Source: Clostridiales bacterium
Lineage (GTDB): Bacteria > Bacillota > Clostridia > Christensenellales > Pumilibacteraceae
DNA: 64,000 nt
Assembly: GCA_022508445.1 (NCBI GenBank)
Contig: JAFLVG010000006.1
Coordinates: 1 to 64,000 of the forward strand
Direction: 5' to 3'
The position numbers were made by a program, and so were the translations under genes. Below the pieces are notes generated by a model. The model did no database searches. It was not told where the DNA came from and saw only the letters and a program-made list of their open reading frames with translations. Numbering within the stretch: position 1 is the first letter of the stretch; every line of letters begins with the position of its first letter. Positions 22,097 through 58,787 of the stretch are shown here, one piece after another.

Positions 22097-22123
22097 AATA
22101 CCACCATATATTGTGGTGGTATT
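22097..22123 (-). terminator. Inverted repeat ending the integrase gene
   Basis: The 10-bp arms AATACCACCA and TGGTGGTATT with a 7-base loop overlap the integrase stop codon, followed on the minus strand by TTTTT. It can end the abi-integrase transcript 25 bases before the attachment core. It may also be part of the integrase-binding arm. Confidence 0.65.
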
Positions 22124-23525
22124 ACTTTACATTCCAATTTATAGTGATTTGGTCGCCGTCTATTACGATTTGCCGTATAAGCTGTTGTAATAGGCGGCGT
22201 TTTTCTTTCTTTGTGGCAGTAGGGTATTCGCGCTGTCGCTGTTTCAGATATTCGATTGATACCGTAGGCGATTTCGCAAGAGTTTGCTTTTCGTTGTCGA
22301 TGACGGCAAGGTTTTTGGATATGCGTTTGTTGATATCGTCGAAGCGCATTGTGTAAGTGTCTTTGTCGATAGCTTCCGCGAGATAGAGATCGAGGATGCG
22401 CTCCTTTTGCTTTTTCAGCTCGCTGTTTTCAAGCAATAGCCTATCAATCGCGCCCGTGCTTGTTTGCGGCGTGACAAATTCTGTAAAGTGCAGATTCATG
22501 ACACGTTCGCTGACGTACTGCTCTAATTCTTCGGTGGGGTACAACTCATTGTCGCACGGCGTTGATCCATGCTCGGCGCTTGCGTATTTCACGCGAGCTG
22601 TGCAGCCGTAAGACGTATAGGTGTATTTTTCCGCACCGTTTATCTTGTGCGCCCTGCGCTTGCCGCAGTACGCGCGGCCGCAGCGTGCGCAGTAAATCAG
22701 ACCCGTAAGCAAATACGGCGTGTTGTCGTGTTCGCGGTGCGAGGTGTTGCGCTTTATAGCCTCCTGCGCTTGCAGATAGGTGTCGTATGATATAATCGGC
22801 TCGTAGTTCGTCGCCTTTATAAGCTCACCGTTATGCTCGAAATAGCCTGCGTACATCGGGCGCTCAATAACGGGCTTGCAGCTCATAGAGTTTGAAAAGT
22901 AGCGCATGTCGGGGTATTTCTCGCGGCAGTAGGCATAGAGCTTACGGAACGAATAGCCCTCTATGTATTTGGCGTACATCTCGCGGATTGCGTCTGCTTC
23001 TTCCGGTACGATCTCCAAGCGGTCACGCTCTTTGTCGAGCTTGTAACCGAAAGGGGATTTGCCCGGGCAAGTGTACTTGCCGCTGCGTGCGCGTGCGGTT
23101 TTACCCATTTGCATGCGCTCTACGATAGTCTCGCGTTCGAGCTCCGAGAATGTTGCCGACATTTTGAGCGCGGCTCTGCCGAACGGGGAAGATAGGTCAA
23201 GATTTTCGTTGAGAGAATAGAGCGTGACGGAATATTTGTCGAACAGCTCCACAAGCTCCAAGACGTCTTTAACGTGGCGCGACAGACGGTCGAGCTTGTA
23301 AATGAGAACGATATTAATGCGCTTGTTTTCGACGTCGGCAATAAGCCGCTCCATAGCAGGACGGTGCAATGTTTTGCCGGAAAAGCCCTCGTCAGAGTAA
23401 ATGTCCGCAACCTCATAAGACTGTGCGGTGGCATACGCCGACAGTTTCTCTTTCTGCACGCCGATGGAATAACCTTCGGTCGCTTGTTCGAGTGTACTCA
23501 CTCTGCAATAGATAGCGGCCTTCAT
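22122..23525 (-). CDS. Large serine recombinase (phage integrase)
   Basis: 467 residues. The resolvase domain (1-150) has YCRVST with nucleophile S10 and the DRLSR motif. A recombinase domain (about 170-270, GKSPFGYKL) and a zinc-ribbon (YCARCGRAYCG, then later Cys) follow, then a coiled coil (about 365-450). It integrates and, with a directionality factor, excises the prophage. The gene lies directly at the attachment site. Its ATG overlaps the stop of the abi gene (ATGA), so the two are probably translated together. No directionality factor could be named; the early small HTH or hypothetical genes are candidates. Confidence 0.95.
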   Translation of the reverse strand: MKAAIYCRVSTLEQATEGYSIGVQKEKLSAYATAQSYEVADIYSDEGFSGKTLHRPAMERLIADVENKRINIVLIYKLDRLSRHVKDVLELVELFDKYSVTLYSLNENLDLSSPFGRAALKMSATFSELERETIVERMQMGKTARARSGKYTCPGKSPFGYKLDKERDRLEIVPEEADAIREMYAKYIEGYSFRKLYAYCREKYPDMRYFSNSMSCKPVIERPMYAGYFEHNGELIKATNYEPIISYDTYLQAQEAIKRNTSHREHDNTPYLLTGLIYCARCGRAYCGKRRAHKINGAEKYTYTSYGCTARVKYASAEHGSTPCDNELYPTEELEQYVSERVMNLHFTEFVTPQTSTGAIDRLLLENSELKKQKERILDLYLAEAIDKDTYTMRFDDINKRISKNLAVIDNEKQTLAKSPTVSIEYLKQRQREYPTATKKEKRRLLQQLIRQIVIDGDQITINWNVK

Positions 23526-24442
23526 GATAAGAAAGATTGCGGCACGCCCATTTTGTCCAAAATAGACTGATTAGGGATGCTATGTATGTATGTAAAAAAC
23601 TCCTTAACGGTGTTCTTAAAGTTCTTGATAAAGCGTGAAAACTCCAATGGCTTAATAAAAAATGAAAAACAACTTAAAGTACCGAATAATGATTGAATAT
23701 TTGTAACGTTTCCTAAATGCCTAATTGTGAAACTATTTGGCTTAATATTAGTGGGAAATGTGTTAAAATCGTAAATGCGCTGATCATGTGCACACTTATT
23801 ACGTAAGAACACTAATACGCTTAATGCATTTTGAATTGTGTCTGGGAATAATTTAACACCAGATATTTGCGATATCTCTACAGCAATGCTGTCTCTTACT
23901 TTTGATGGCAAGCATTCGTACATTTTGCTCAATGTCCCAAACGATATAATGTTAATGAATACCCAAATGGGTACAAAATTGTATTTGCTTTTGTAATGAA
24001 GAATCATTGGATTAGACTTTGATATAGCATAATCAAGTTCATCGGATAGTTTAGTTATTAGTTGAGATGTTTGTACTGTACGTCTCGGATTATAATTTGC
24101 AATATCCAAATAGAAATCTATTGCATTATTTTGATTCGCATACGCAAATTTATGCGCTAAAACGGATTTGAATGTACGCTCTATCAAAGTTAGATAATGA
24201 GATAAATCATGACGCAAAGTTTTATCGAATTGATGCATGGCGTATATCTCATCGAAAGTTGTACCTAAAATATATTTTTCGGGATTGCTACCTTTTAGAA
24301 TAAAAAGGTCCTTGTAACCATTAATAATATTATAATAATTATGTCGCATCAATGCTTCTTTAGCTGCATCCACATCAAATATAATCATGCCGCGATTAAG
24401 CAGTATGTTGATCTGTTCATCATAGGTTTTGTAGTCTAACAT
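23522..24442 (-). CDS. Abi_2 (AbiD/AbiF) family abortive-infection protein
   Basis: 306 residues. The family start is clear (LDYKTYDEQINILLNRG and HNYYNIINGYKDLF), and the HEPN-type RX4H motif is intact as R214-NKCA-H219, followed by DQRIYDF. HEPN proteins of this kind are usually RNases, and AbiD/AbiF members protect lactococci from phage. AT-rich compared with the integrase, which suggests separate origin. RBS AGGAG lies at 24449-24453. A short structured RNA with its own promoter lies immediately upstream. Likely role: lysogen defence against other phages. Confidence 0.85.
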   Translation of the reverse strand: MLDYKTYDEQINILLNRGMIIFDVDAAKEALMRHNYYNIINGYKDLFILKGSNPEKYILGTTFDEIYAMHQFDKTLRHDLSHYLTLIERTFKSVLAHKFAYANQNNAIDFYLDIANYNPRRTVQTSQLITKLSDELDYAISKSNPMILHYKSKYNFVPIWVFINIISFGTLSKMYECLPSKVRDSIAVEISQISGVKLFPDTIQNALSVLVFLRNKCAHDQRIYDFNTFPTNIKPNSFTIRHLGNVTNIQSLFGTLSCFSFFIKPLEFSRFIKNFKNTVKEFFTYIHSIPNQSILDKMGVPQSFLS

Positions 24443-24647: not shown

Positions 24648-25253
24648 TCATCTCACATCGCTTTGAAACGCGATAGCTTTGGCGAGAATGCGGATTTGCT
24701 CTAACTCTTCGCCAATATACACAAACGGCTCGTACTTCGGGTTTTCCGCCTGCAGTATGAGTTTTTTCTTTTCGGGGTAGTAGAATACGCGTTTGAGCGT
24801 TGCCGAGTCATCGATGAGCACGACTGCTATATCGCCGTTGTCCACCATGCTTTGTTTGCGACAGAACACGATATCGCCGTCCATGATGCGCGCGCCTGTC
24901 ATACTGTCGCCCTGCGCTATCAAGCAGAAATCGGCATTTATATCTGTTCCTGCCATTACATAGCTTTCGCGATCTTCATCGGCAAAGATAGGCTCGCCGC
25001 ACGCGACTTTTCCGAGTACGGGAATACGACGCGTGGCAATAGGTGATACGCCGGGAATGGAGTAGATGGTTTTACTGTCACTTAACCCAAGAACACCCTC
25101 TATCGCTTGCACGGTGTCAACTCTGGGAGCGTATGTAGCTCCTCGAAAGATGTCCTTAACGGTGCTAATGCTTATGCCGGTGCGCTCTGCGATTTCTTCG
25201 AGAGTGAGTTTAAGCTCCTTTTTTCGTGCTTTCCATAGTTCTAAATCGTACAT
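24648..25253 (-). CDS. CI/LexA-like prophage repressor (HTH + S24 peptidase)
   Basis: 201 residues. An N-terminal XRE helix-turn-helix (about 10-58: LTLEEIAERTGISISTVKDI) is joined to an S24 Ser-Lys peptidase domain with S117 in GDSMTGARI and K154 in ATLKRVFYY. The probable self-cleavage region is VACGEP (83-88). RecA-stimulated autocleavage would release lytic promoters. It is divergent from the Cro-like gene, with operator-like GTACGA repeats between them. RBS GAGG precedes ATG 25253. Confidence 0.93.
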   Translation of the reverse strand: MYDLELWKARKKELKLTLEEIAERTGISISTVKDIFRGATYAPRVDTVQAIEGVLGLSDSKTIYSIPGVSPIATRRIPVLGKVACGEPIFADEDRESYVMAGTDINADFCLIAQGDSMTGARIMDGDIVFCRKQSMVDNGDIAVVLIDDSATLKRVFYYPEKKKLILQAENPKYEPFVYIGEELEQIRILAKAIAFQSDVR

Positions 25254-44288: not shown

Positions 44289-44570
44289 TCGTCGAATATT
44301 CGACGAGTAGTCTGTGAAGTTTCGATAATTACTCGATGAGGACTCGACGAGTATTCGACGAGTATTCGGTTATATGTCGTTGAGTTGTCGTCGAAACCGA
44401 AACCAAAAATAAACCGAAAATAACCAAACTGAAACCGAAAATATGCTATAATGGGGATTTTAAGCAAAAAATGGTGAAATAACCATTGAAAAACAACTAA
44501 AAACGCCCATTCATTTCTCAAAAACCATTCGACGAGGGCTCGTCGAATACTCGTCGAATACTCGTCGAAG
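44289..44570. repeat. Second set of 11-bp iterons
   Basis: Units: TCGTCGAATAT and TCGACGAGTAG (44289-44310); TCGATGAGGAC and TCGACGAGTAT twice (44333-44365); TCGACGAGGGC, TCGTCGAATAC twice and TCGTCGAAG (44529-44570). The junction TCGTCGAATATTCGACGA is a perfect 18-bp palindrome, so both orientations of one site occur. Confidence 0.75.
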
Positions 44571-44900
44571 AAAGAAGAAAGAAAAAAGAGAAAAGAACCA
44601 AAAGAGAATAAAGAAAGAAGAAAGAATTAAAACACACACAACGCATATACGCGCGTACGCGCGCGAAGGTGTGGATGTTATTTCGGTAAAAAAGAGTAAA
44701 CCATACTAAAAAGCAATAAGATTGGTGTTAATGTTACCATGTATCTATGCAAAATTGACAGAATATAACTTATTTGCCACGAAAATGATTTTTTCGAGGG
44801 TTTCTCGTTAAGACAGTTTCGTGTCATACGGGCTAAATTTGAGCAAATTTCGGCAATGTGAAAAATCAGTAAAATTTTTTAAAAAAGTTTGCAAAAACGC

Positions 44901-44945
44901 TTGACATTTGTACGTTCAAAAGTGTATTATGAATGTACGAAAGTT
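44901..44945 (+). promoter_or_regulatory. Promoter and operator of the first RHH gene
   Basis: TTGACA (44901-44906) and TATTAT (44925-44930), 18 bases apart. TTGTACGTTC in the spacer is repeated inverted as GAATGTACGA (8 of 10), a likely operator. The GTACG core resembles the CI operators. Confidence 0.65.
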
Positions 44946-44958
44946 AGGGAGGTATATT

Positions 44959-45147
44959 TTGGTACAACGCAAAAGAATGGGTAGACCCACATTAGACCCT
45001 AAGGTAATGCGTAAAGACATTAGACTTTCACGTTTAGACTGTCAGAAACTTGAATATTGTATAAGGGAGACAGGATTAACGGGTAATGAAATTATACGTA
45101 AGGGAATTGATAGGGTTTACCAAGAATTACAAGAATTAAAAAAATAA
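44959..45147 (+). CDS. Ribbon-helix-helix repressor-like protein 1, 62 aa
   Basis: Starts at TTG 44959 with GGGAGG upstream; a longer frame runs back through the promoter. It reads MVQRKRMGRPTLDPKVMRKD, then IRLSRLDCQKLEYCIRETG, then LTGNEIIRKGIDRVYQEL: a basic arm, a beta strand and two helices, the Arc/CopG pattern. It likely binds the inverted repeat in its own promoter. The antisense RNA A ends just inside its 3' end. Confidence 0.7.
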   Translation: MVQRKRMGRPTLDPKVMRKDIRLSRLDCQKLEYCIRETGLTGNEIIRKGIDRVYQELQELKK

Positions 45148-45208
45148 GGGTTACCGCTCACAACCGTGACAAGTTCAGCGACAACCCAACCGACAGACAA
45201 AGTCCGTC
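45138..45208 (-). ncRNA. Antisense small RNA A
   Basis: Minus-strand promoter TTGACA (45238-45243), 17 bases, TACACT (45215-45220). The RNA of about 70 nt has a 5' hairpin (GACGGAC/GTCTGTC type), then GGTT, then a terminator stem GGGTT-CGCT / AGCG-AACCC (45148-45158 with 45177-45187) and a perfect U-run (TTATTTTTTT). The loop contains GAACUUGUC. It is antisense to the region between the two RHH genes. Confidence 0.7.
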
Positions 45209-45264
45209 TAAATAAGTGTACCATAGATTGCTTTGTTTGTCAACAACAAACTTTCGTCAAACGC

Positions 45265-45293
45265 TTGACATACTACAAATATTGTAGTATAAT
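45265..45293 (+). promoter_or_regulatory. Promoter/operator of the second RHH gene
   Basis: TTGACA (45265-45270), 17 bases, TATAAT (45288-45293), both consensus. The spacer is an operator-like palindrome, ACTACAAATATTGTAGT, so the RHH protein probably represses itself and the genes behind it. Confidence 0.8.
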
Positions 45294-45316
45294 GGTAGTA
45301 AGTAGGAGGTAACACA

Positions 45317-45448
45317 ATGAATGATACAGCTCTTAATATTAAGATTCCGAAAGAACTGTATGACCGATTAAAGCAAGAGGCAGATAAAAAGAATATATCT
45401 TTGGCTTCTTTGGTTCGGTTGATATGTTCCGAATATCTTGATAAATAA
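45317..45448 (+). CDS. Ribbon-helix-helix repressor-like protein 2, 43 aa
   Basis: AGGAGG precedes the ATG. It reads MNDTALNIKIPKELYDRLKQ, then EADKKNISLASLVRLICSEY: a short beta strand (ALNIKIP) followed by two helices, the CopG/Arc fold size. It likely binds the palindrome in the promoter at 45265. Antisense RNA B overlaps its last codons. Confidence 0.78.
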   Translation: MNDTALNIKIPKELYDRLKQEADKKNISLASLVRLICSEYLDK

Positions 45449-45513
45449 AGAGAGGGAGCGCGCCAAGTTTCGCAGACACAACGCACTCCCAACCGACAAG
45501 AAAAACTCTTGCT
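45440..45513 (-). ncRNA. Antisense small RNA B
   Basis: Minus-strand promoter TTGACA (45544-45549), 18 bases, TACAAT (45520-45525). The RNA has a 5' hairpin CAAGA/TCTTG, then GTCGGTT, then a terminator stem (45454-45462 with 45482-45490, one mismatch) and a U-rich tail UCUCUUUAUUUAU. The loop contains GAAACUUGG. It covers the leader between RHH 2 and the antirepressor, 60 bases before that start codon, so it could act on antirepressor mRNA as sar RNA does in P22. Confidence 0.7.
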
Positions 45514-45574
45514 AATAAAATTGTATCATAAGTAAGAGCTTCTTGTCAATCACAAATTTTCAAGGAGTTTTATT

Positions 45575-46303
45575 ATGTCAAATTTAACAGTATTTAACAA
45601 TCAACAGTTCGGGGAAGTTAGAGCGACAGAAATCAATGGCGAACCGTGGTTCGTACTTGCGGATGTGTGCCGCGTATTGGAAATTGGTAACACGCGCAAT
45701 GTAACGCGTCGGTTGGACATAGATGAAAAGGGTGTCCACGAAATGGACACCCTTGGTGGTAAACAAAATTTAACGGTTATAAACGAAAGCGGTCTTTATT
45801 CTGTCATTCTTCGCTCTGACAAGCCGCAAGCGAAACCGTTTCGTAAGTGGGTAACTTCCGAAGTTCTGCCTACAATTCGTAAAACAGGCGAGTACAAAGC
45901 CAAGCCTTCCGACGAGCTACGCCGCAAGAACACCGAGATACGCGAGCAGAACGCCAAAATTCGCACGGCACAGCTTTTATACAAGATAGCCGACAAAACG
46001 GACACAGACTACAAACAAGTCCTACACGCGCGAATAACGCAGCTTTTGACGGGCGAGTATCTTTTGCCGTTGCCGGCTGTAAACGAGCGCACATACAGCG
46101 CGACGGAGATAGGCGAGCGCTTGGGCGTAAGTGCACGCCGCATAGGCATGCTTGCTAATGCTCACGGGCTTAAATCTGCGGAGTTCGGCAAGTATTTTTA
46201 CGATAAGGCAAAGACGGCGGACAAACAAGTGGAAACATTTCGCTACTACGAAAAATCGGTGGACGTGTTCCGCTCGCTCATAAGCGCGGAGGTGGCAGTA
46301 TGA
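45575..46303 (+). CDS. Phage antirepressor (Bro-N domain + C-terminal ANT-like domain)
   Basis: 242 residues. The Bro-N domain (1-110) is clear: GEPWFVLADVCRVLEIGN, then NESGLYSVILRSDKPQAKPF, then RKWVTSEVLPTIRKTGEY. A coiled-coil linker follows, then a DNA-binding-like C-terminus (YSATEIGERLGVSARRIGML). Such proteins bind or titrate CI repressors and trigger induction. CAAGGAG site. Its stop overlaps the start of the S24-like gene. Confidence 0.92.
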   Translation: MSNLTVFNNQQFGEVRATEINGEPWFVLADVCRVLEIGNTRNVTRRLDIDEKGVHEMDTLGGKQNLTVINESGLYSVILRSDKPQAKPFRKWVTSEVLPTIRKTGEYKAKPSDELRRKNTEIREQNAKIRTAQLLYKIADKTDTDYKQVLHARITQLLTGEYLLPLPAVNERTYSATEIGERLGVSARRIGMLANAHGLKSAEFGKYFYDKAKTADKQVETFRYYEKSVDVFRSLISAEVAV

Positions 46304-46665
46304 TGGCTGTGGTCGATCAACGGCAAGATATTGTTCCCACACAATTCGGGAATGCCGACGCGTCAGAATACTTCTCTTTGAAGGTCGTTGATGACGGAAT
46401 GTCACCTACTATTTTGCAAAGCGATGAGATAGTGTTTCACAGACAACAAACGGTCGATAATGGAGAATTAGCCGTCATAACCATAGGCGACGAAAAGAAC
46501 GCAATATTGCGGCGCGTTTATTACGGTACTGACGGTACACTCTTATTGACGACTGACAATACGCAGGTCGCACCGATGATATTCGACAGTGACGAAGCAA
46601 GGCAAGTACATATTCACGGTAAAGTCGTATATCTCGTGCGTGAGATAACACATAACTGTTTCTAA
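46300..46665 (+). CDS. S24/LexA-like C-terminal domain without HTH, catalytic residues lost
   Basis: 121 residues (start 46300 or 46303, both ATG). It aligns with the C-terminal domain of the CI repressor of the same prophage (IVFHRQQTVDNGELAVITIG against IVFCRKQSMVDNGDIAVVLI). The nucleophile Ser in GDSM is Gly (VDDGMSP, G33) and the general-base Lys in LKRV is Arg (ILRRV, R71). No DNA-binding domain is present. The ATGATG overlap couples it to the antirepressor. I infer a dimerisation decoy for CI or a related repressor. Confidence 0.8.
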   Translation: MMAVVDQRQDIVPTQFGNADASEYFSLKVVDDGMSPTILQSDEIVFHRQQTVDNGELAVITIGDEKNAILRRVYYGTDGTLLLTTDNTQVAPMIFDSDEARQVHIHGKVVYLVREITHNCF

Positions 46666-46670
46666 TAATA

Positions 46671-46694
46671 AAAGGACGGTTTGACCGTCCTTTT
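46671..46694 (+). terminator. Terminator after the S24-like gene
   Basis: AAAGGACGGT with ACCGTCCTTTT over a 3-base loop. Confidence 0.88.
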
Positions 46695-46729
46695 CAATTG
46701 GAGTAAAACTATGAATAGCAGTTAAACAT

Positions 46730-46755
46730 AAAGGACGATTACTCGTCCTTTTTTA
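46730..46755 (-). terminator. Terminator of the minus-strand membrane gene
   Basis: AAAGGACGA/TCGTCCTTT stem (46730-46738 with 46743-46751) overlaps the stop codon at 46739. It works in both directions because A- and T-runs flank it. Confidence 0.75.
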
Positions 46756-47155
46756 ATTCGTCAAGCTCGGCTTGGAGCTTTTCTATGCGTTGTTGTTTTG
46801 CGACAGCGGCTTGCTCCGCTTTTGCGGCGGCGCGTTGTTCCTTGCGTGCTTTGAACTTGTTTTTAAGCGACTTAAATATGGGGAAATCTTTGATTGCGAT
46901 TACTACCATAACTGCAATGTCTGCGATTGCGGCGATAAGCATGGGAATGGCGTACGCGAGAGCCTTGTCTATTTGAGCGTTATAATATTTTAGGTCAGTT
47001 GAATAATCAAGGTTTGGATGATTAAGAATAAGACCGTTTATTTCTTCTATATACTCGTTCATTGCTGCAACATGTTTAAGGAACGGACAACAGCATGCAA
47101 TTAGCACGGCAAATATAAAGGCCAAAAGTATTTCAATAACAATTGTTTTTTTCAT
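46739..47155 (-). CDS. Membrane protein with coiled-coil tail (possible lysogenic conversion gene)
   Basis: 138 residues. The first helix (IVIEILLAFIFAVLIACCCP) and a second (AIPMLIAAIADIAVMVVIAI) flank an outer loop; the C-terminus is a charged coiled coil (FKARKEQRAAAKAEQAAVAK). A promoter TTGACA, 17 bases, TAAAAT lies so close that the transcript would start at or just before the ATG, so translation is nearly leaderless. It stands alone against the late genes, the usual position of superinfection-exclusion genes. Function not shown. Confidence 0.65.
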   Translation of the reverse strand: MKKTIVIEILLAFIFAVLIACCCPFLKHVAAMNEYIEEINGLILNHPNLDYSTDLKYYNAQIDKALAYAIPMLIAAIADIAVMVVIAIKDFPIFKSLKNKFKARKEQRAAAKAEQAAVAKQQRIEKLQAELDELKKDE

Positions 47156-56228: not shown

Positions 56229-58787
56229 ATGGACAAGACATACGATCCGCACAGCTTCGAGCGCCGTCTTTACAAGAGATGGGTGGACGGCGGCTGTTTC
56301 AAACCGCGCGCCGGTAAGATGAAAAAGAAATTTTCGATAGTCCAGCCTCCGCCTAACATCACGGGACAACTGCACATGGGGCATGCCATGAACGTTACTA
56401 TCCCCGACGCAATCGTGCGCTACAAGCGCATGAAGGGCTACGAAACGCTGTGGGTGCCCGGCTACGACCATGCCTCCATTGCAACCGAGGTCAAGGTGGT
56501 TGACGCAATGCGCGAGGAGGGTTTGAGTAAAGCCGACGTAGGCCGCGACGGGTTTTTGAAGCGCGCTTGGGATTGGAAGGAAAAATACGGCAACCGCATT
56601 GTGGAACAGCTCAAAACGATGGGCGTCAGCCTCGACTGGTCGAGAATGGCGTTTACCATGGACGAGGAGCGTTCGCGCGCAGTGCGAGAGGTGTTTGTGT
56701 CGCTGTACGAGCAAGGCTATATCTACCGCGGCGACAGAATAATAAATTGGTGCCCGGGCTGTAAGACGGCTATATCCGACGTAGAGGTCGATTACGCGTC
56801 GGAGCCGTCACATCTTTGGCACATTAAATACCCGTTCAAGGACGGTAGCGGATATGTTACCGTTGCGACGACACGTCCCGAAACTTTGCTCGGCGATACG
56901 GCGGTCGCGGTCAGCCCCAAGGACAAGCGTTACGCCGGCATGGAAGGGAAATTGCTTATACTGCCGCTTGTCGGAAGAGAGATTCCCATAGTTTACGACG
57001 ATTACGTTGAAGCGGACTTCGGCACGGGTGCGGTCAAGATTACGCCTGCGCACGATCCCAACGACTTCGAAGTGGGGCTTCGTCACAACCTCGAAGTTAT
57101 ATGCGTGATGAACGACGACGGAACGATGAACGAAAAGGCGGGCGCCTACTGCGGCATGCCGCGCGACAAGGCGCGTGCGGCGGTTGTAAAAGACTTGCAG
57201 GCGCAGGGCCTCATGGAAAAGATAGAGGACTACACGCACAACGTCGGGCATTGCAGTAGGTGCAAGCAGACGGTCGAGCCGCTCGTGTCCAAGCAGTGGT
57301 TTGTCAAAATGACAGAGCTTGCCGCGCCTGCAATCGAGGCGGTCAAGACGGGCAAAATAAAGTTCATACCCAAGCGTTTCGAAAAATCGTATTTCAATTG
57401 GATGAATAACATTCGCGATTGGTGCATTTCGCGTCAGCTTTGGTGGGGACATCGCATTCCCGTGTTCTATTGCGACGGTTGCGGAAAAGAGATTGTCAGT
57501 AAGACCGATATCGAGGTCTGTCCGCATTGCGGCGGCAAGGTACACCAAGACGAGGACGTTCTCGATACTTGGTTCAGCTCCGCGCTGTGGCCGTTTTCCA
57601 CAATGGGCTGGCCTGACAAAACCGACGATCTCAAAAAATACTATCCAACCGACCTTCTCGTGACCGCTTACGACATCATCACATTCTGGGTGTCGCGCAT
57701 GATATTTGCCGGATTGAAGTTCACGGGCGACGTGCCGTTTAAAGACGTTTATATACACGGGCTTGTGCGCGACGAGCAGGGTAGAAAGATGAGTAAATCG
57801 CTCGGCAACGGCGTCGATCCCATGGAAGTTATCGAAACGGTGGGCGCGGACGCGTTGAGATTTTCGCTCGTAAACGGCATTGCGAGAGGCGGAGACGTTT
57901 GCTTTTCCAACAATGCGTTAACGGCTTACCGCAACTTCATGAACAAGCTGTTTAATGCGGCGAAGTTTGTCATAGGCGCGTGCCAAAACGGTTATGTCAA
58001 AAACCCCAAGGCTCTTACCGCCGCCGACGGCTGGGTTATCGGTCGTATAAACGAGCTTATCGCCGCAGTAAATCATTCTATGAACAGATACGACGTTGGG
58101 CATGCGGCACAACTTTTGTACGATTTCATTTGGGACGAGTTCTGCGATTGGTACATCGAGTTTGCAAAAGTGCAAATGAAAACGGGCAATGCACAAAACA
58201 CCGCCGGCATACTGCGCTACGCGCTCGAAGTGCTGTTAAAGCTCGTGCACCCGATTATTCCGTTCATTACGACCGAGATTTACGACAGCTTGCCGGATGC
58301 GGAAGGCGAGCTCATGCTCAAAGACTTTCCCAAGAAAAAGCGCGGCGACTATGAGGGCGCGGTCAAGCTCACCGAGCGACTTAAAGACTGCGTGCGCGCT
58401 GTGCGCAATCTTAAACAGACCAATTCGGCAGTTGCAAAAACTCCCGAGGTGTTCTGCGACGGCGACGAGGAGCTTTGCGAGCTTATCAAGCAATATTTGC
58501 CCACGCTCGCCAAAACCGCCGAGGTCAAGGACGGCACCGCCCAAAACAGCGCGCTCATCGCACTCGACAGAATCAAGATATGTGTTCCGCTTGCCGATAC
58601 GCAAAAGGAGCGCGACCGCCTCGAAAAAGAGCTTCAAAAATGCAAGTTCGAGCTTGAACTCGCTAAGTCCAAGCTAAACAACGAGGGCTTCCGCAGCAAG
58701 GCGCCGCAAAAACTGATTGACGCCGAGCTCGAAAAAGTGGAGCGTTACACGGCGAACATCAAGGTGCTTACCGAAAAACTCGCATAA
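56229..58787 (+). CDS. valS: Valyl-tRNA synthetase
   Basis: 852 residues, class Ia. The HIGH motif is HMGH in PPNITGQLHMGHAMN, and KMSKS is in GRKMSKSLGNGVDP. The editing domain segments VTVATTRPETLLGDTAVAV and a Cys pair zinc-like region (CPHCGGKV) are present, with the C-terminal coiled-coil arm (KERDRLEKELQKCKFELELA). It charges tRNA-Val. AGAGGAG site. No T-box is visible in the short upstream region. Confidence 0.98.
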   Translation: MDKTYDPHSFERRLYKRWVDGGCFKPRAGKMKKKFSIVQPPPNITGQLHMGHAMNVTIPDAIVRYKRMKGYETLWVPGYDHASIATEVKVVDAMREEGLSKADVGRDGFLKRAWDWKEKYGNRIVEQLKTMGVSLDWSRMAFTMDEERSRAVREVFVSLYEQGYIYRGDRIINWCPGCKTAISDVEVDYASEPSHLWHIKYPFKDGSGYVTVATTRPETLLGDTAVAVSPKDKRYAGMEGKLLILPLVGREIPIVYDDYVEADFGTGAVKITPAHDPNDFEVGLRHNLEVICVMNDDGTMNEKAGAYCGMPRDKARAAVVKDLQAQGLMEKIEDYTHNVGHCSRCKQTVEPLVSKQWFVKMTELAAPAIEAVKTGKIKFIPKRFEKSYFNWMNNIRDWCISRQLWWGHRIPVFYCDGCGKEIVSKTDIEVCPHCGGKVHQDEDVLDTWFSSALWPFSTMGWPDKTDDLKKYYPTDLLVTAYDIITFWVSRMIFAGLKFTGDVPFKDVYIHGLVRDEQGRKMSKSLGNGVDPMEVIETVGADALRFSLVNGIARGGDVCFSNNALTAYRNFMNKLFNAAKFVIGACQNGYVKNPKALTAADGWVIGRINELIAAVNHSMNRYDVGHAAQLLYDFIWDEFCDWYIEFAKVQMKTGNAQNTAGILRYALEVLLKLVHPIIPFITTEIYDSLPDAEGELMLKDFPKKKRGDYEGAVKLTERLKDCVRAVRNLKQTNSAVAKTPEVFCDGDEELCELIKQYLPTLAKTAEVKDGTAQNSALIALDRIKICVPLADTQKERDRLEKELQKCKFELELAKSKLNNEGFRSKAPQKLIDAELEKVERYTANIKVLTEKLA

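Follow-up and report, generated by a model that had tools for sequence, protein, structure and literature searches.

A predicted two-layer lock on a prophage antirepressor gene in Clostridia: ribbon-helix-helix repressors combined with a start-closing antisense RNA

Background

Control of a gene by a counter-transcribed RNA encoded just ahead of it has been proposed for several plasmids and phages, and the statements given here follow those portions of the cited sources that were available. RNAII of plasmid pMV158 is proposed to block ribosomes by direct hindrance (PMC5703833, PMC4485353), and RNAI of pSK41, an RNA of ~83 nt with two stem-loops, is proposed to induce a stem-loop that sequesters the ribosome binding site (PMC5703833). 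Antisense RNAs upstream of integrase genes have been detected by RNA-seq in Streptococcus pyogenes prophages (PMC6431027), and in phage P22 the immI region has been assigned to an 'ant moron' that sits within the late operon (PMC2629481). Here we analyze a locus of related layout in a 64,000-nt stretch of Clostridiales bacterium DNA (GenBank assembly GCA_022508445.1, contig JAFLVG010000006.1, positions 1 to 64,000; hereafter the window), which is part of a contig from a 1.78-Mb Clostridia genome. The locus consists of two small ribbon-helix-helix (RHH) genes, RHH1 and RHH2, each followed by a predicted antisense RNA (RNA A and RNA B), a Bro-N antirepressor gene, an S24-domain gene and a terminator-like hairpin. 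A preliminary description had listed these parts in this order, and all of them were found in their places. We conclude, with a probability of about 0.72, that the locus is a doubly locked prophage antirepressor switch in which RHH repression is combined with antisense closing of the Bro-N start.

Methods

Antisense features were sought directly behind the stop codon of each RHH gene, on the opposite strand. The loci examined hold 118 distinct RHH genes, 116 of which have 300 nt of downstream sequence. In the switch test, the leader of the next gene was folded free and with the antisense-covered part kept single-stranded, and ddG is the difference between the two in the energy needed to open the stretch from the Shine-Dalgarno (SD) sequence to the AUG. 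The first set comprised 117 units, from which those with no next gene (19), with the next gene more than 200 nt off (21), with a weak antisense terminator (9) or with a weak antisense promoter (1) were dropped, leaving 67 to be tested. For the second set, drawn from named genome records, viral contigs and phages, 152 RHH genes were collected, 81 near-duplicates were removed and 71 were kept; 44 units were tested, and in 19 cases no gene followed at a distance of up to 200 nt. A separate test of tandem units covered 8 leading units, with the window unit added by hand, and set aside 10 more that had no clear start (4) or a weak antisense promoter (6).

Results and discussion

A predicted switch in the Bro-N leader

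The Bro-N gene (45575..46303, plus strand) encodes a 242-aa protein that matches Pfam Bro-N (3e-26) and PHROG anti-repressor families. RNA B (45441..45513, minus strand) is a predicted antisense RNA of ~73 nt whose start is placed from its promoter at 45520..45549 (minus strand; TTGACA-18-TACAAT with a TG before the -10), and RNA A (45137..45208, minus strand, ~72 nt) is likewise placed from a promoter at 45215..45243 (minus strand; TTGACA-17-TACACT, again with TG before the -10). Two hairpins are predicted for each RNA (z -2.7 and -2.9, respectively), with a T-rich stretch after the second one. In both, the 3' hairpin is the terminator, and the U tract of the RNA A terminator overlaps the RHH1 stop codon. 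The two RNAs share GTCGGTTGGG, which occurs twice in the window against 0.07 copies expected.

The leader switch itself lies at 45495..45547 (plus strand). In the computed fold of the free leader, arm 1 (45495-45513), which RNA B targets, forms a helix with arm 2 (45531-45547). When arm 1 is blocked, an alternative helix at 45535..45571 (plus strand) takes its place, in which 45535-45545 pairs with 45561-45571 and buries the SD sequence AAGGAG (45562-45567). The energy needed to open the SD-to-AUG stretch rises from 3.0 to 12.5 kcal/mol (ddG +9.5) and the unpaired probability of the SD falls from 0.58 to 0.00, and RNA B is thus predicted to control translation of Bro-N.

We envisage the following mechanism, the whole of which is computed or inferred. 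The RHH proteins would keep the promoters of the RHH-Bro-N-S24 transcript repressed, and RNA B, transcribed from a strong promoter of its own in the gap between RHH2 and Bro-N, would bind the Bro-N leader through its complementarity. In a free leader arms 1 and 2 would be paired, with the SD open; with RNA B on arm 1, arm 2 would pair with the SD and close the start. Bro-N, perhaps together with an inactive S24 protein, would then not be made, and the CI-like repressor of the prophage would stay in charge. Should RHH protein and RNA become scarce, for instance because the phage has just entered a naive cell or because the repressors have been depleted, antirepressor would be made in a burst and, by analogy with P22, favour lysis.

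The predicted switch recurs across a family of units

The first set gave a mean ddG of 4.65 kcal/mol, with values above 2 in 50 of 67 units, or 27 of 30 when counted by sequence cluster, and the second set gave a mean of 4.32 and values above 2 in 33 of 44. Within this range RNA B of the window, at +9.5, is a strong example. When the stretch between the antisense start and the SD (arm 2) was shuffled, ddG exceeded 2 in 14/402 and 8/132 cases (3-6%), and when the antisense-covered part was shuffled it did so in 112/402 and 23/132 (17-28%).

Several observations weigh against this reading. The 17 of 67 units at or below 2 include the nearest relative of the window locus (L002, +1.4) and RNA A of the window itself (0.0). 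Swapping the SD and start between units still left ddG above 2 in 136/268 cases, compared with 49/268 when the antisense part was swapped between unrelated units; the match between arms 1 and 2 is therefore specific and that between arm 2 and the SD largely generic, as would be expected of an anti-SD. A U tract (at least 5 U in 8) stands behind 12 of 58 closed hairpins, so that transcription attenuation may act in some units. Nor is the cassette a general companion of Bro-N, family RHH genes having been found in only 2 (L002, L007) of 13 viral Bro-N loci, among which L004 has almost no upstream sequence. The folding is thermodynamic, ignores co-transcription and takes the antisense site as fully covered, the Bro-N protein is assigned as an antirepressor by family only, and the transcripts, the binding and any immunity are putative.

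An RNA that acts directly, blocking or destroying the Bro-N mRNA by duplex formation or RNase III cleavage with the arm 2/SD pairing incidental, would account for the units in which no switch is predicted, which would need such a mode, and the order of RHH gene, RNA and target is that of pMV158, for which the available parts of the sources propose direct hindrance (PMC5703833, PMC4485353). We nevertheless consider this unlikely, given that the frequency of the switch in both sets lies far above that of the arm-2 shuffles (3 and 6%) and that the switch is largely lost when antisense parts are exchanged between units. Attenuation of the kind found in pT181 or pIP501, with the induced hairpin terminating the mRNA before Bro-N, draws on the U tracts behind 12 of the 58 closed hairpins; 46 of the 58 have none, neither window unit is among the 12, and the U run that follows the SD in the window lies within the stem, all of which make attenuation a poor explanation of this locus. 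Marginally less probable still is that the RNAs are by-products of chance promoters and terminators, or of terminators that insulate the RHH gene, and exert no antisense control. The RNAs are so far predictions, and RNA A is computed to leave the next start unaffected, as such an origin would have it; against this, promoter, terminator, covariation and switch all exceed their controls in two sets, and a search that uses the RNA alone finds RHH neighbours.

Distribution and structure of the RHH-RNA cassette

A profile built from RHH1 and nine relatives (A1) found members in 43 of 391 genomes of the class, with up to 16 copies per genome. Behind the RHH genes, an antisense terminator of -10 kcal/mol or better was present in 97/116 (56/348 shuffles), an antisense promoter scoring at least 10 of 12 in 70/116 (12/348), and a terminator together with a promoter scoring at least 9 in 83/116 (8/348). 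The de-duplicated second set, which includes Streptococcus phages Javan527 and Javan166, Clostridium difficile phiCDIF1296T and Fusobacterium phage Funu2, has terminator plus promoter in 53 of 71 cases as against 4 of 71 (one shuffle each). The family RNAs are ~70-95 nt long and consist of a 5' hairpin and a covarying terminator stem, in which 84.4% of cells are paired and the covariation score is 0.648, compared with 0.255 when shuffled (0/500 as high) and at most 0.303 when slid. By eye, the terminator loop often reads CUUUGGU(C/U)GGG. On these grounds, an RHH gene with a predicted counter-transcribed two-hairpin RNA is a recurrent cassette of Clostridia that is also present in streptococcal, C. 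difficile and Fusobacterium phages.

The covariance model R1, whose seed includes both window RNAs, matches RNA A with an E-value of 8.5e-6 and RNA B with 7.1e-4; no further convincing copy was found in the genome of the window (third match, E 0.17). On held-out phage loci, R1 gave 6.7e-4 for L121, 0.0085 for L125, 0.031 for L122, 0.076 for L120 and only 0.95 for L119, and it missed L118 and the right place of L123. Searching with the RNA first, R1 had a match in 13 of 398 genomes of the phylum, and loci were available for 20 of its 29 matches, 4 of them in the training genome G582 and 16 elsewhere. Of these 16, 7 lie beside a family RHH gene, 2 beside other RHH-like small proteins (L260, with a Pfam match of 5.7e-4 that is below the cut-off, and L266, with no clear Pfam match), 2 beside HTH_17 proteins (L256, L258) and 5 beside nothing fitting. 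In L256 and L258 an antisense RNA of the R1 kind stands behind small HTH_17 proteins in place of RHH, which suggests that the repressor part of the lock is exchangeable.

At gathering threshold Rfam gave no match in the whole window, and so none to RNA A or RNA B, and in 20 loci it gave only a skipping-rope RNA in L002, away from the antisense RNA of that locus; relaxing the threshold added only matches below gathering, which fell in other parts of the window locus and in 8 loci. The skipping-rope RNA (RF02924) lies at 3261-3339 of L002, upstream of the RHH1 relative. In the literature searched we found no description of a cassette of RHH gene and counter-transcribed two-hairpin RNA, and published RNA maps of S. 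pyogenes NZ131, as far as the available portion of the source extends, could not be linked to the Javan527 unit.

The genes behind the RNA vary. Bro-N follows it in the window and in L002, L007, L017, L041 and L057, Rha in L035, L064 and Funu2, ORF6N in L090 and L110, a KilAC antirepressor in phiCDIF1296T, a resolvase in L027 and DUF6809 in L021, L044 and L106, and many small proteins that have no Pfam family are also found there. The lock is therefore not tied to one function, antirepressors being one main use. In L027 (1501-2452) an RHH-RNA unit precedes a serine recombinase with a predicted closing of +3.8 kcal/mol, and the lock may control recombination or mobility too.

Doubled units and their probable stacking

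In L002, the closest relative, the order is RHH1-RNA A-Bro-N-S24 and the second unit is absent, and in the window an unrelated RHH gene with its own palindrome stands, together with its RNA, between RNA A and Bro-N. Downstream of RNA A and of RNA B the sequences can be aligned as far as the start of the Bro-N SD, where the RNA A copy diverges; in keeping with this, RNA A is predicted to leave the RHH2 start unaffected, and as a switch for that start it was rejected. The preliminary description had treated the two RHH-RNA units as acting alike, and this did not hold up, given that RNA B is predicted to close the Bro-N start and RNA A has a ddG of 0.0.

Closely spaced family RHH genes are found elsewhere: 17 of 111 in the first set are closely followed by another, in 11 loci, and in each of the 8 tested units with a further RHH gene next in line ddG is at or below 1.9. 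G1010 has three RHH genes in front of a single target, with nearly identical sequences for the last two RNAs. The units of G757 speak against a general rule for tandem units: the gene behind the RNA there encodes a short protein with a weak likeness to RHH, and a strong switch is predicted (ddG +7.3 in L037, +4.6 in L068, +4.1 in L070, +5.9 in L083, +10.2 in L086 and +10.8 in L087); in the three of these units that were scanned (L037, L086, L087), Pfam gave no clear RHH. A further row of at least five family RHH genes on one strand, some with no clear antisense RNA, is seen in L066 (G693, C12:712600-716300). New units seem to be stacked next to the target. The RHH2-RNA B unit would have been placed ahead of Bro-N and behind an RHH1-RNA A unit that was there earlier, an insertion that would deprive RNA A of a start site on which to act.

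The RHH proteins and their promoters

RHH1 (44959..45147, plus strand) is a small putative repressor of 62 aa with a TTG start after GGGAGG. It matches PHROG 876, 'transcriptional repressor', at 5.6e-10 and has no Pfam match at 0.1; its family carries the motif GRPTDNPK, and Pfam does not recognise the family in RHH1. Against PDB, the family profile gave weak matches that are nearly all to RHH proteins (MazE7 0.0067, ParG, CopG 0.58). An AlphaFold model (mean predicted local distance difference test score, pLDDT, 85.6) has two helices after an extended stretch, and fold searches with it gave weak matches that are not decisive (best Foldseek E 3.6, best Z 3.0, with NikR, ParD and MatP among the matches listed), as is to be expected for the monomer of a dimeric fold. 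From PHROG 876 and the weak PDB profile matches, RHH1 is likely an RHH protein. RHH2 (45317..45448, plus strand), a CopG/Arc-like putative repressor of 43 aa, matches Pfam RHH_5 at 6.9e-7 and 29.3 bits, above the cut-off of 26.

Palindromes had been described in the -35/-10 spacers of both RHH promoters. The RHH2 promoter (45265..45293, plus strand; TTGACA-17-TATAAT, 12/12) does hold an inverted repeat inside its spacer (45270-45278 / 45282-45290), with a score of 9 that was equalled by 1 of 500 shuffled promoters. In the RHH1 promoter (44901..44938, plus strand; TTGACA at 44901-44906 and TATTAT at 44925-44930), the inverted repeat (44910-44918 / 44930-44938) is imperfect and flanks the -10, and it means little alone because its score of 6 is common in shuffles (120/500). 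Across the RHH1 family, palindromes were present in 54 of 100 promoters and in 44 of 500 shuffles. The locus region has 16 promoter-like sites, compared with 7.2 +/- 2.7 in shuffles.

The orphan S24 gene

The gene behind Bro-N (46300..46665, plus strand), whose start overlaps the Bro-N stop, encodes a 121-aa orphan S24 domain (Pfam 9.4e-15) and lacks a helix-turn-helix (HTH) domain. It is 33% identical to the CI/LexA-like repressor of the window, and PDB gave nothing at 0.001 and weak LexA matches. In an alignment with that repressor and two phage repressors it has DDGM for GDSM and ILRR for LKR, in which the Ser and the Lys are what we take to be the catalytic residues of S24; they are replaced by Gly and Arg, and the three full-length repressors keep both. 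The S24 protein behind Bro-N in L002 reads TDEM and IIRR, with glutamate and arginine at the two sites. With both catalytic residues replaced, the window protein should not cleave itself, and our guess is that it pairs with the CI-like repressor as a decoy. A terminator-like hairpin with a T run follows at about 46670..46695 (plus strand), as read from the sequence, and a terminator scan lists the next hairpin downstream of S24 at 46730-46751.

Prophage setting

A serine integrase gene (22122-23525, minus strand) and a CI/LexA-like repressor gene with HTH_3 and S24 domains (24648-25253, minus strand) precede plus-strand genes for replication, terminase, portal and head and mark the region as a prophage, and this repressor is the likely opponent of the Bro-N antirepressor. 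An Abi-like gene (Abi_2, 23522-24442, minus strand) adjoins the integrase and repressor genes and is probably a prophage defence gene. The RHH-RNA-Bro-N locus lies downstream of the head genes among neighbours that have no clear family. It had been placed among structural genes, where a tape-measure gene would be expected; no tape-measure family matched the tail open reading frames tested in the window, and a placement of this kind has parallels elsewhere. In L260, an RHH-like gene, RNA and Bro-N lie between an XkdN-like tail chaperone gene and the tape-measure gene, and in L051 and L226 an RHH gene directly precedes the tape-measure gene (the antisense terminator of L051 is poor, at -7.1, and L226 has no switch, at -0.6). 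The position of the window locus is thus moron-like, as supported in silico.

Upstream of the locus lies a long non-coding stretch (44290-44670) that is rich in repeats of the TCGACGAG/CGTCGAAT type in both orientations and also holds several terminator-like hairpins. Directly behind the locus, a 138-aa gene (46739-47155, minus strand) with a hydrophobic start and a Lys/Ala/Gln-rich coiled-coil-like end falls into no family and may have travelled with the same moron as a passenger. An 852-aa protein (56229-58787) with a near full-length match to PHROG 12710 (1e-283) is encoded close to the probable right end of the prophage.

A possible portable lock and its implications

A broader proposal, for and against which we see the balance as roughly even, is that these units form a portable two-layer lock family, widespread in Bacillota and some of their phages and unnamed so far, in which an autorepressor is coupled to an antisense RNA that closes the start via an anti-SD arm. 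Such a lock would have been moved before antirepressors, recombinases, DUF6809 and small proteins; tandem stacking would change operator and antisense specificity in one step, offering a way to change prophage immunity, and a non-cleavable S24 protein could serve as a decoy for the CI-like repressor. If true, many Bacillota phages and genomes and at least one Fusobacterium phage share the two-input lock of plasmid copy control and P22 immI, applied here to prophage antirepressors and small proteins with no known function. This would provide a testable model for prophage quiescence and change of immunity type. Covariance model R1 finds the RNA, and the lock would offer a lead to the function of DUF6809 and of the other genes behind it.

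Comparison with known systems

The comparisons below extend as far as the available portions of the cited sources. Like the prophage RNAs of S. pyogenes (PMC6431027), those described here are predicted antisense RNAs of a Bacillota prophage; the S. pyogenes RNAs lie upstream of integrase genes, and the portion available mentions no RHH or antirepressor gene. The pSK41 system shares the induced stem-loop that sequesters the ribosome binding site, a likeness that in silico extends to RNA B only and not to RNA A. It differs in that it controls Rep and has an antisense target ~100 nt upstream of the start, and the available text mentions no RHH partner. In layout, copG-rnaII-repB of pMV158 is similar, with an RHH repressor gene, a counter-transcribed intercistronic RNA and then the controlled gene. 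Its RNAII is 48 nt long with one hairpin and a single-stranded 5' tail, whereas the window RNAs are predicted to be ~72 nt long with two hairpins and indirect closing, and its target is a rolling-circle plasmid Rep initiator, whereas that of the window is the phage regulator Bro-N.

With P22 immI, the locus has in common a small RHH repressor gene, an antisense RNA and an antirepressor gene situated among late genes (PMC2629481, PMC13397905). An RHH gene, RHH1 being so assigned by PHROG only, stands ahead of the antirepressor gene and is presumably cotranscribed with it, and a predicted antisense RNA gene lies between repressor and antirepressor. The window has Bro-N where P22 has Ant, two RHH-RNA units in a row and start closing by a leader switch. 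The analogy with immI that had been drawn from the outset therefore stands in part: the arc-sar-ant-like logic is reproduced in silico and family promoters carry palindromes, but Mnt of P22 is divergent from arc, and the second RHH gene of the window has the same orientation as the first and lies inside the unit, no divergent gene resembling Mnt having been seen. That the window locus works like P22 immI (arc-sar-ant) is thus partly supported, as a likeness in logic rather than as established membership.

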